Shown here one piece after another: positions 28,863-36,257 of a stretch of DNA of 36,257 bases. Positions within the stretch are counted from its first letter, which is position 1; each line of letters begins with the position of its first letter. Both the position numbers and the translations under genes were made by a program. The notes beneath the pieces are model-generated. The model was given only the letters and a program-made list of their open reading frames with translations. It was not told the origin of the DNA and did not search any database. The DNA comes from Gammaproteobacteria bacterium (lineage in GTDB: Bacteria; Pseudomonadota; Gammaproteobacteria; GCA-2400775): assembly GCA_002400905.2 (NCBI GenBank), contig NVRQ02000044.1, positions 1 through 36,257 of the forward strand, in the 5' to 3' direction.

Positions 28863-30077
28863 ATGACATTGAATAATATACTGAATTTCTTGGATGGCGG
28901 CTTATTGGAACCCACAGTTTGGGGTTATATTGGCTGGACATTGTTGCTGACTCATATCACGATCATTGGCGTTACAGTGTATCTGCACCGCTGCCAGGCT
29001 CATCGTGCTCTCCAATTGCATGTGAGTGTCAGTCACTTTTTCCGTTTTTGGATGTGGTTGACCACAGGTATGCGTACCAAGGAATGGGCAGCCATTCATC
29101 GTAAGCACCACGCAAAATGTGAGACCGAAGGCGATCCGCATAGTCCTGTGGTATTGGGTATTAATACGGTGTTGTGGCGTGGTGCCGAGCTTTATCAAGA
29201 AGAGGCTGATAATGCCGAAACCTTGGAAAGATACGGTAAAGGGACTCCAGATGACTGGATAGAACGTCACCTTTACGCGCGATCAAAAAACTGGGGTCTC
29301 TCAGTGATGTTTGTGCTGGATATTATGCTGTTTGGGGTTGCTGGCATTGCCGTATGGGCAGTGCAAATGGTGTGGATTCCATTTTTTGCTGCTGGCGTGG
29401 TCAATGGCTTGGGTCATTGGTGGGGTTATCGCAGTTACGAGTGTGATGATGCCGCGACCAATATTTTACCTATCGGTATTTTGATTGGTGGTGAAGAGTT
29501 GCATAACAATCACCATGCCTTTGCGAGCTCAGCCAAATTATCGTCAAAGTGGTATGAGTTTGATATTGGCTGGATGTATATCTGCCTACTAGAGATGTTT
29601 TTATTAGCTAAGGTGAAGAAGCTACCGCCGGAGCTAACGATTGATCGAGCTAAAATGATCTTGGATACTGACACGGTTGTAGCGATGGTGGGTAATCGTT
29701 TGCAAGTGATGTCGAACTACTGTCAGGATGTATTAAAGCGCGTTCATCGTGATGAGGTCGGCAAGGCAGATAGGGTGGCACGCGAAGACTTACATCGCAG
29801 TCTACCTTTACTGATTCGCGAGGAAAGCTTGATGGATGGCATGAGTAAAGAACGTCTTGAGAGTGTATTGGATGCTAGCGAGGTTTTAACAACCGTTTAT
29901 TCGTTTAAGCGGAATTTGCAAGAGATTATGCGCCGTTCTGCGGTGACTCACGAGCATCTGTTAGAAGCCATACAGGAATGGTGCCGCCAAGCTGAAGCAA
30001 CAGGGATTAAAGCGTTAGAAGAGTTTGCACAGGCATTGCGTGGCTATTCTATGCAGACAGCTCCAGCCATGACTTAG
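28863..30077 (+). CDS. Acyl-CoA desaturase / delta-9-type fatty acid desaturase
   Basis: His boxes HRCQAHR, HRKHH, ELHNNHH with four TM-like segments. Confidence 0.9.
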   Translation: MTLNNILNFLDGGLLEPTVWGYIGWTLLLTHITIIGVTVYLHRCQAHRALQLHVSVSHFFRFWMWLTTGMRTKEWAAIHRKHHAKCETEGDPHSPVVLGINTVLWRGAELYQEEADNAETLERYGKGTPDDWIERHLYARSKNWGLSVMFVLDIMLFGVAGIAVWAVQMVWIPFFAAGVVNGLGHWWGYRSYECDDAATNILPIGILIGGEELHNNHHAFASSAKLSSKWYEFDIGWMYICLLEMFLLAKVKKLPPELTIDRAKMILDTDTVVAMVGNRLQVMSNYCQDVLKRVHRDEVGKADRVAREDLHRSLPLLIREESLMDGMSKERLESVLDASEVLTTVYSFKRNLQEIMRRSAVTHEHLLEAIQEWCRQAEATGIKALEEFAQALRGYSMQTAPAMT

Positions 30078-33258: not shown

Positions 33259-35856
33259 ATGAAAAACAAGCTTAAGTTATTAAATAAGTCCGGTCAGGGT
33301 GCTGGCTCATTCCTCTCGACGCAGACTGCCCATCAGGCAAAATTTAGTATTCAAGGTTTACTATGGATGCTAGCGCTTATTGCTGTTGCGGCCATTCTTG
33401 CTGCCGGCGCCGGCGCCTACGTCTTACTGACTGAGCATTTTACCCAGCGTTACGAACAACAAAATGATGCCGATGCCAATGCAATAGGCCGTGAGCTGTC
33501 TAATTATTTTGTGCGTTTTCATTCACGCATAGAAATTCTTGCCGATGATCCCGTCGCTGAGCAGGCATTGGAGAACGTCAATACGGATGCTTTGCATCAA
33601 CGTGAGGCGGAGATTGCGGTGCTTTTTCCTGAAGCAATGCGGGTTATGTTGTTGCCGGCAAATATTGTGCGATCTGCTCGCCCTAGTGATTTCCCTGAGC
33701 TTGGCTTTGCTGATATCGATTTACTTGATTCACATACTCGAGGCATAACCCCCCCGTTAGAAAGCCATCAATTTGGTAGCGAATACGGACATATCGATTT
33801 TGTTAATCGTATAGACAGTCGCTCCAACCGTAGTTTGTTAGGATTTTTGTTGATCAGCTTTAAAGACGACTTTCTTGATGACGTGGTTAAGGAGATGTCG
33901 CAATATGGTGGCGGCTATTTTGAGTTGCAACAACCCTTGGCAAAAGGTAAGCCATTGGTATTGGCTAAGCACGGCGATGTTGCATTGGCACAAGCGAGGA
34001 ATATGCTTGAACGGCCGGTAGACGGAACGGCTTGGCGACTACATTATTTCCCTCCTGCACCGGCATCATTGGGTTTTGAGTTGAACTCACAAAACTACGC
34101 AATGATCTTTCTTGGCGCAGCGTTGGTATTGCTGATAGTCGTCGTGGTGTTCGCACGATTGATTGCGAGTATGGTGCGCAAAGACTTGAGTAATATCGTA
34201 TCACTGGTGCGCGATATGGTGGCAGGACGATTGTTGCGGCAATTCAGTGAACTACGTTTGCGTAATTTTGTTAGTACGTATGATGCGATTAGCCGCATAG
34301 ATGTAGACATGTCGCCAACACCCATTTCGCTAGGGACTTCCAACGAAAATGGCAACGAAGAGGGTGAGTATGAGCACGCTGAAATACCGAGCTCAGGTTT
34401 TGAAACCATTGATTTGATTTTTCAAGATAATGCTGCCTCAGTGGCTGAGGATATTGTCCCGGTAGTAAAATTGCAGCAAGGCCGACAGGTGCCTGCAGGT
34501 ATTTTTAAAGCCTATGATATTTGCGGTATTGTTGGTGAAACGTTAACTACGGATTTAGTCGTCGATATTGGCCGCGCGTTTGGCAGCGAAGCCTATTCAC
34601 TCGGACAGCAAACGGTTGCCGTTGCGCGTGATGGTCGTTTATCAAGTCCAGAATTACTCAATGCCTTAATAAAGGGTTTGATAGAGAGTGGTCGCGACGT
34701 TATTAATTTAGGCTTGGTGCCAACACCGGTGCTCTATTTTGCGACGAATTATATGAGTACCGCATCGGGCGTGGTGGTGACAGGTAGTCATCATCCATCG
34801 AACAGTAATGGTTTGAAGATGGTGTTAAAGGGCGAGACACTTTCCGGTGAAACCATGCAGGCCTTACGTACCCGTATTGAACATGGCGACTTTCAAACGG
34901 GTGTTGGTAGCATTGAAGAGGTTGATATTGTTTCGGACTATATTGAAAGTATCGTTGGCGATATTGAGCTATCTCGGCCGCTTAAAGTAATTGTTGATTG
35001 CGGTAACGGGGCCGCGGGTGATTTGGCACCACGTTTGCTCCGAAGCTTAGGCTGTGAAGTTATTGAGCTGTATTGTGAGATTGATGGAAATTTTCCGCAC
35101 CATCTTCCCGATCCAAGCCAACCAGAAAACCTCAGTGACGTGATTGAGGCAGTCATGATTAATGACGCCGACCTGGGCCTTGCATTTGATGGTGATGGTG
35201 ATCGGCTTGGTGTTATCGATTCACGTGGCAACGTGATATGGACTGATCGCCAAATGGTGTTGTATGCCAAAGACGTGATTAGTCGTAATCCGGGCGCGGA
35301 GATTATCTATGACGTTAAGTGCTCGCGTCATTTAGGTGCTGCCATCAAGAGTTTTGGTGGCAAGCCAGTGATGTGGAAAACGGGTCATTCGCTCATTAAG
35401 GCACGTATGAAACAAACGGGTGCGCTACTTGCTGGTGAAATGAGCGGCCATATCTATTTCCAGGAGCGTTGGTATGGTTTCGATGATGCGCTTTATACGG
35501 CGGCGCGTTTGCTTGAGATCGTCGCCAGTGACTTGCGCAGTAGTTACGAGCTGTTTGCCGAGGTTCCGAATGGGGTTCGCACGCCGGAGCTAAAGCTTGA
35601 AATGGATGACGCGACCCGCGCCAATTTTATGCGAAATTTAGTTGCCGCAGCAAACTTCCCTGATGCGAGCATTATTACTATTGATGGTTTGCGTGTTGAG
35701 TTCGAAGATGGTTGGGGGCTGGTTCGTGCATCGAATACTACGCCGTGCTTGGTGATTCGCTTTGAAGGGGACAACCCTTCGTCGTTAAAGCGTATCCAAG
35801 GTGAGTTTCGCCAATTGATGTTAGGACTTGATTCAACGCTCCTACTTCCGTTCTAA
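33259..35856 (+). CDS. algC: Phosphomannomutase/phosphoglucomutase (AlgC type) with N-terminal membrane-anchored extracytoplasmic domain
   Basis: C-terminal half has TGSHHPSNSNGLKM phosphoserine loop, FDGDGDRLG metal loop, GEMSGH; N-terminal ~390 aa has two TM segments flanking a ~220-aa domain. Confidence 0.92.
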   Translation: MKNKLKLLNKSGQGAGSFLSTQTAHQAKFSIQGLLWMLALIAVAAILAAGAGAYVLLTEHFTQRYEQQNDADANAIGRELSNYFVRFHSRIEILADDPVAEQALENVNTDALHQREAEIAVLFPEAMRVMLLPANIVRSARPSDFPELGFADIDLLDSHTRGITPPLESHQFGSEYGHIDFVNRIDSRSNRSLLGFLLISFKDDFLDDVVKEMSQYGGGYFELQQPLAKGKPLVLAKHGDVALAQARNMLERPVDGTAWRLHYFPPAPASLGFELNSQNYAMIFLGAALVLLIVVVVFARLIASMVRKDLSNIVSLVRDMVAGRLLRQFSELRLRNFVSTYDAISRIDVDMSPTPISLGTSNENGNEEGEYEHAEIPSSGFETIDLIFQDNAASVAEDIVPVVKLQQGRQVPAGIFKAYDICGIVGETLTTDLVVDIGRAFGSEAYSLGQQTVAVARDGRLSSPELLNALIKGLIESGRDVINLGLVPTPVLYFATNYMSTASGVVVTGSHHPSNSNGLKMVLKGETLSGETMQALRTRIEHGDFQTGVGSIEEVDIVSDYIESIVGDIELSRPLKVIVDCGNGAAGDLAPRLLRSLGCEVIELYCEIDGNFPHHLPDPSQPENLSDVIEAVMINDADLGLAFDGDGDRLGVIDSRGNVIWTDRQMVLYAKDVISRNPGAEIIYDVKCSRHLGAAIKSFGGKPVMWKTGHSLIKARMKQTGALLAGEMSGHIYFQERWYGFDDALYTAARLLEIVASDLRSSYELFAEVPNGVRTPELKLEMDDATRANFMRNLVAAANFPDASIITIDGLRVEFEDGWGLVRASNTTPCLVIRFEGDNPSSLKRIQGEFRQLMLGLDSTLLLPF

Positions 35857-35864
35857 TAGCGTAA

Positions 35865-36132
35865 TGGGCACCTCTATTCATTGCTTATGGCCTCTGCCTG
35901 ATCTGAAGCGTGCAGAGGCAAGGCGCACAACCCGCTGATAAGGCTGGTTGCCTTATCAGCGGGTTGTAACGCAGCAGACGCGTGCTTCAGATTACGCCCT
36001 ACGGGGCTTACAGACGAGTCCAGGCTCGGCGTTATCATTGCTTAACAGGCCACAAGCCTGCCTGCGCAATGATGCCTTGATCCTGAACTCGTCTGTAAGC
36101 CAGAGACCATAAGCAATTAATAGAGGTGCCCC
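35865..36132. mobile_element. MITE-like element 4 with multi-arm secondary structure
   Basis: Ends GGGCACCTCTATTCATTGCTTATGGCCTCTG / CAGAGACCATAAGCAATTAATAGAGGTGCCC (29/31 complementary); possible 3-bp TAA duplication (35862-35864, 36133-36135); two large internal hairpins. Confidence 0.85.
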
Positions 36133-36151
36133 TAAGAAGGATTACAAAAAA

Positions 36152-36257
36152 TCAGAGATTAAGCTGACCTTGCTTCCCAGTGCCCTTGGGCCGCGACGTG
36201 CCATCGGGGTACATTTTTCGTCGACTGTAGAATTGATGAATAGACTCTTTAATTAAA
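36152..36257 (-). CDS. Unidentified protein, C-terminal fragment (truncated by window edge)
   Basis: Minus strand open frame ...LIKESIHQFYSRRKMYPDGTSRPKGTGKQGQLNL* entering from the right edge; too short for the ORF track. Confidence 0.45.
   Translation of the reverse strand, partial: LIKESIHQFYSRRKMYPDGTSRPKGTGKQGQLNL

Follow-up and report, generated by a model that had tools for sequence, protein, structure and literature searches.

A non-autonomous IS5-type MITE beside an algC-like gene carries a twin-hairpin core found in many proteobacterial genomes

The window, by which we mean the whole stretch of 36,257 bp that was analysed (contig NVRQ02000044.1 of the gammaproteobacterial assembly GCA_002400905.2), ends on its right with an algC-like gene, a foldback element and a short flank. 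The features are listed here, with the hairpin units scored by R1, a covariance model that we built from the hairpin unit and used for genome scans.

33259-35856, + strand: algC-like phosphomannomutase/phosphoglucomutase gene (NCBIfam PgmG-type mutase match, below the model cut-off); its 3' end abuts the element
35866-36131: foldback element, 266 bp, directly 3' of the algC-like gene
35866-35895, + strand: left terminal inverted repeat GGGCACCTCTATTCATTGCTTATGGCCTCT, 30 bp; its outer 13 bp also end the intact IS5-family elements L179 and L337
35896-35997, + strand: hairpin unit A, sense on + (R1 match 60.8 bits; comparison with sister copies)
35996-36007, + strand: centre mini-hairpin GCCC-UACG-GGGC (UNCG on +, GNA triloop on -)
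36005-36101, - strand: hairpin unit B, sense on -, homologous to unit A (R1 match 86.4 bits, E 1e-17; alignment A1)
36102-36131, - strand: right terminal inverted repeat
36132-36257, no strand assigned: right flank of the element, 126 bp, 99% identical to G000:C90:14523-14648 (L191)

Elsewhere in the window, at 28863-30077, we noted a fatty acid desaturase of the DesA family with a C-terminal domain similar to the tail of ISL3 transposases (NCBIfam NF049919).

A preliminary description of this DNA had proposed a cloverleaf-like non-coding fold after algC, and the fold is real: the RNA fold of the element has an energy of -165.6 kcal/mol vs -92.7 +/- 5.0 kcal/mol for dinucleotide shuffles (z -14.5; reached by 0/200), and the DNA fold has a z of -15.8 (0/200 shuffles). 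The terminal stem, arm A and arm B are all present in the sequence where that description had placed them. The terminal arms (35866-35899/36098-36131) are 91% complementary, the outer stem of arm A lies at 35896-35909/35984-35997, its inner stem at 35927-35944/35950-35967 is 18 bp long and perfect with a TGGTT loop, and the stem of arm B lies at 36005-36027/36079-36101. In unit A, AAG and AA bulges stand on either side of GCG/CGC, the loop is UGGUU, and the inner stem has been perfected in the window copy. The extent given earlier (35862-36135, 268 bp) needs a small correction, since the element proper is 266 bp (35866-36131); the two hairpins inside the terminal stem are there, but the small junction hairpin at 35996-36007 had been overlooked, and once this GCCC-TACG-GGGC hairpin is counted the figure has four arms. 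The only Rfam match on the window element is mir-4178, at 23.3 bits vs a gathering score of 90, and searches of ten loci with divergent copies found no Rfam family over the element.

Three congeners lack an element here and have argB within about 10 bp after algC, an arrangement that we take to be the empty site (the gene names zipA, ligA and argB are our own presumed assignments, made by reading the sequences). On contig C90 the counterpart of the window's right flank forms the end of the gene before ligA and lies beside another copy of the element. Because the right flank duplicates the flank of the C90 copy and is not the expected argB, the contig is probably chimeric or misjoined at the right end of the window, or else rearranged there through the repeat. 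No clean target duplication bounds the window copy, which is unusable for reading one because its right flank comes from another site. The same gap in genome G004 (L184, G004:C154) holds another member of the superfamily, which has different terminal repeats and precedes argB, so that this gap of about 10 bp has received two separate insertions, one in the window's genome and one in G004.

The preliminary description had made its case depend on there being other copies and on changes that keep the stems paired. Copies exist, and the substitutions between them keep pairing. In the window's own genome, a 2.16-Mb draft of 180 contigs in which contig ends cut some full-length copies, 61 blastn pieces represent about 6-7 copies of full length and about ten that are shortened or internally deleted. 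The close DNA family is also found in 3 of 4 sampled congeners. Relatives that are full-length (262-284 bp) and laid out in the same way were found in Thiotrichaceae NORP24 (over 40 element matches), NORP146, Bermanella, Porticoccaceae, an Aeromonadales MAG and others, and relatives are scattered across the Gammaproteobacteria, a distribution to be read with the caveat that MAG binning may put contigs in the wrong genome. An exact scan for the end GGGCACCTCTATTNATTGC returned at least 111 stretches, mainly from marine gammaproteobacterial MAGs; these ends also occur in cyanobacteria, Chlorobiaceae and others, there around unrelated short interiors. In NORP146, a derivative of 159-166 bp that lacks arm A is present at several sites (L090, L127, L138:1317-1475, L146), each with its own target duplication. 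Since these single-arm derivatives have spread with duplications of their own, the full core is not required for movement. Several contigs of NORP24 and of the window's genome terminate inside element copies; copies of the element break assemblies.

We also noted an exactly conserved 22-bp insertion, CCAACAGTAGGCGCTTTAGGCG, in hairpin arms of two genomes, at three different positions (L037:44-65, L040:1479-1500, L253:1600-1621). Locus L040 (G004:C10, around 1420-1610) holds a lone arm-B-like unit within a different inverted repeat, TTCTATGTGTACTTAC/GTAAGTACACATAGAA.

Relatives in NORP24 and other genomes are bounded by direct target duplications of 4 bp, mostly TTAA and also TTTA, TATA and TTAT, with TTAA..TTAA duplications seen in L087, L105, L139, L149 and L168. 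The 3-bp TAA duplication expected earlier was therefore rejected. The suggested search for an autonomous IS with GGGCACCTCTATT ends was successful. L179, from a Gloeomargaritales cyanobacterium, is 1243 bp long with a TTTT target duplication and an IS5_4 transposase (NF033581, 270.5 bits vs a cut-off of 140), while L337 is 1255 bp long, its IS5_4 transposase frame is open and its duplication is ATAA; it comes from a gammaproteobacterium in which the core is found too. Degraded relatives are found in the genome and genus of the window copy; they lie in that genome (TTAA followed by GGGAATCTCTATTAATTG ahead of an IS5_4 pseudogene) and in NORP174. A second end type, GGGAACCTCTGATCAAT, is shared by IS5_4 copies in G145 and MITEs in G080. 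Partner transposases are demonstrated solely for the GGGCACC and GGGAACC end types. IS5_4 matches in NORP24 are weak despite its many element matches, and the complete genomes G290 and G383 have no IS5_4 match, so in these three the helper would be missing or of another type. The autonomous IS5 elements themselves are without the core (no R1 match in L179, L223, L228, L335, L337, L344, L350 or L354). Among gammaproteobacterial loci from the exact end scan, candidates of 2-3 kb for a transposase-bearing IS between two terminal inverted repeats proved to be separate MITEs around ordinary genes.

The window element is multi-copy, shorter than 500 bp and has no transposase inside, which is the size and content of a MITE. 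Because it shares its ends with IS5 elements, its relatives have 4-bp duplications and it is without coding capacity, the window element is, by its defining sequence features, a non-autonomous IS5-type MITE. Mobilisation in trans by an IS5-family transposase is what we infer from these features. Of the three options offered earlier (structured RNA, transposase substrate or protein-binding repeat), the transposase substrate is supported by the ends shared with the IS5 family.

The interior of the element has its own organisation. Arms A and B are homologous hairpin units of about 97 nt with the internal loops CAAGGCG/CAACGC, and they align as one when read on opposite strands. Among 53 full-length elements with 47-97% pairwise identity, CAAGGCG and CAACGC are near-invariant in both units. 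Neighbouring units face each other in 54/54 pairs, the spacing between them is exactly 7 nt in 43/54, and 47/54 of the centres in this wider set of pairs contain C(TN[CT]G)G, that is C(UNYG)G. As RNA the centre is a UNCG tetraloop (CUNCGG), and on the other strand it reads CCGNAG, which as DNA is a C(GNA)G triloop; C(GNA)G is a very stable DNA mini-hairpin.

Beyond the family of the window element, the same core lies within inverted repeats of about 30 bp that have quite different sequences. The end types around it include GGGAACCTCTGATCAATT, GGGAAACTCTGCACGAAT, CTAGTACTCTTTCAAGGTAATAA, CTAGTGTCCCTTAACAG, TTAACCCGGCAACAATG, CTAGTACAGCAACCAC, TAGTGTAGTGCGTCAC, GGCCTGTTAACG and more. Many of these ends start at CTAG or TTAA, which is consistent with YTAR-type targets. 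The R1 unit was detected in 105 of 369 sampled Gammaproteobacteria, representing 83 of 271 genera, and in 63 of 399 sampled Pseudomonadota, some of them outside the Gammaproteobacteria; copy numbers from R1 are lower bounds, as the best 10-11 candidates per genome were scored. Altogether the core occurs in well over a hundred proteobacterial genomes, usually within different mobile-element ends. Searches by blastn with several elements against plasmids, phages and E. coli genomes found no match save one, on the Variovorax paradoxus 2u118 megaplasmid (L393:2501-2769, NZ_CP138516.1), which is a twin-hairpin element with other ends, TAGGGCCTGTTAACGCTATGG. No description of the core was found in Rfam 15 or in the open-access literature searched. 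The earlier suggestion that the element is more elaborate than a simple MITE is supported as well, by a conserved and covarying hairpin pair common to MITEs with unrelated ends.

In a rough survey based on open reading frames, 27 elements were co-directional with their neighbouring genes, 11 lay between divergent and 10 between convergent genes, and 4 were inside long frames, with no clear pattern of orientation, and the same survey found no conserved gene neighbourhood. The twin-hairpin element of L280 (G087:C131, about 1470-1740) is situated in a long open frame, presumably ABC transporter-like, and either inactivates the frame or adds residues to it in frame.

Pairing is well preserved throughout the family. 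In the alignment of the 53 full-length elements, 71 of the 94 pairs have at least two Watson-Crick types and 38 have three or more, and at the level of single units about 31-32 of 34 pairs covary. Among 142 distinct units, whose alignment had been fitted to the model, 97.1% of pair cells are standard vs 59.9% when shuffled and 34-42% when slid. The aligned rows share ancestry, so these pair-cell counts are non-independent.

The pairs that depart from Watson-Crick are informative about which strand matters. Such cells in the units are 346 G.U vs 48 A.C, and 42 of 44 genomes have the excess in that direction. When gains are counted by parsimony on the unit tree, reading each unit on its own strand, the inner hairpin has 119 G.U vs 16 A.C (about 7:1), and the outer stem 31 vs 24. 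The 53-element alignment, which was made without the model, gives a corresponding result when read on one strand. Arm A has 167 G.U vs 24 A.C, arm B is reversed with 14 vs 50 (excluding one column, a possible register artefact, in which all 53 have U.G), and the terminal stem has no G.U excess (13 vs 26). A bias tied to the strand of the genome cannot yield this asymmetry because the two units point opposite ways. Selection on a single-stranded fold is the simplest reading, because the G.U excess follows each unit's own strand, and the single-stranded form of each unit in its own sense, RNA or single-stranded DNA, is probably under selection.

We considered whether the element could be an ordinary selfish MITE, with an interior inherited by descent, a palindrome kept by template-switch correction alone and a core that has no function. 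The window copy itself lends something to this idea. Its sister copies read CAACCCGC...AAGGATTGT where it reads ACAACCCGC...GCGGGTTGT, each side having changed to match the other; the 18-bp perfect inner stem is private to the window copy and derived, the family being without such a stem, and it looks like the template-switch correction of a quasi-palindrome. Correction of this kind could account for a part, perhaps much, of the Watson-Crick covariation with no selection involved, and the single-arm derivatives still spread. However, it does not explain the retained bulges or the strand asymmetry. Correction should erase bulges, yet the CAAGGCG/CAACGC loops have stayed near-invariant while whole elements diverged, and it predicts equal numbers of G.U and A.C gains, which is not what the inner hairpin has. 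The same core also recurs with unrelated ends at constant spacing. We consider a functionless core unlikely.

The core could instead act as single-stranded DNA, in which case its hairpins would form where one strand lies exposed, either at replication forks or while DNA is taken up, and be bound by a protein, aiding transposition or maintenance in the manner of HUH or integron hairpin substrates. The strand-specific constraint suits single-stranded DNA as well as RNA, facing units would offer one hairpin in the sense orientation whichever strand is exposed, the bulges are conserved, and the centre can be read as the DNA triloop. Against this, the marks of movement, direct duplications and matching inverted ends, are those of a DDE transposase, which needs no single-stranded hairpin, and no candidate protein emerged; overall this role seems to us improbable. 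Finally, if the element were an independent structured RNA gene downstream of algC with no relation to transposition, the extreme fold stability and the covariation would be accounted for, but this reading is already largely excluded and highly improbable given the scattered multi-copy insertions with target duplications, the ends matched to IS elements, the empty sites in congeners, and the lack of an Rfam family or, in the rough survey, of a conserved gene neighbourhood.

We know of no structured MITE whose single core is found with many unrelated end types and in over 80 genera. The ends, lengths and duplications of ERIC and NEMIS/Correia differ from those of the window element. These and other structured MITEs are likewise small, non-coding, foldback and transcribable, and are spread by trans-acting transposases (reviewed in PMC10969869). 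The Chunjie MITE of Geobacter uraniireducens resembles the window family in size (178-235 bp) and in its many full and partial copies in one genome, but it belongs to a different organism group, and the passage on it reports no twin hairpin conserved across genera (PMC10969869). REP/BIME sequences with RAYT transposases are, like the core, paired inverted hairpins that are intergenic and of high copy number (PMC2817692), and the core has the inverted hairpin pair in every one of its 54 facing pairs; in contrast, its units, at about 97 nt, are not short REPs, and they are enclosed by terminal repeats of 30 bp, with duplications of 4 bp. The nearest experimentally tested example is MITEPsy1 of Pseudomonas syringae pv. 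phaseolicola, which has the IS5-related ends GGAAGGTCTGAAAAAGCC and a 4-nt duplication (CTAG or YTAA), is non-coding and jumps in vivo (PMC3189936). It shares the IS5-related ends, the 4-nt duplication and the absence of coding capacity with the window element, but, compared by description only, it is 100 nt long, of restricted distribution and described with no twin-hairpin core (PMC3189936). Integron attC sites were rejected as a match by reading, because their RYYYAAC/GTTRRRY boxes are not matched by the unit motifs CAAGGCG and CAACGC.

The explanation that we favour, and hold to be somewhat probable, is a non-autonomous IS5-type MITE with a conserved twin-hairpin core that is retained as an orientation-independent hairpin, most likely of RNA. 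An IS5-family transposase made elsewhere in the cell would recognise the ends and move the element in trans, and the core would be dispensable for each single jump. The core would be kept since, in either direction of insertion, one of the two units folds in the orientation that works. The fold would most likely form in read-through RNA of a neighbouring gene. There a host RNA-binding protein or RNase could bind or cut the unit, so that the insertion becomes tolerable or the transcript is protected; the main alternative to RNA would be a hairpin of single-stranded DNA at the replication fork.

More broadly, the twin-hairpin core may be a separate and widespread structured nucleic-acid module of the Pseudomonadota, a new class of RNA or single-stranded DNA that many different IS5-type ends have carried and that serves its carriers or hosts in some way, the facing arrangement allowing it to function in either orientation of insertion; we judge the case for this broader reading to be evenly balanced. 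MITE interiors are commonly viewed as dispensable leftovers. Here the ends vary freely, and it is the interior that keeps its motifs, spacing, orientation and strand-specific pairing, in at least 83 genera of a small sample. The twin-hairpin core, absent from Rfam, offers a testable case of small mobile elements in many genomes retaining a structured nucleic acid.
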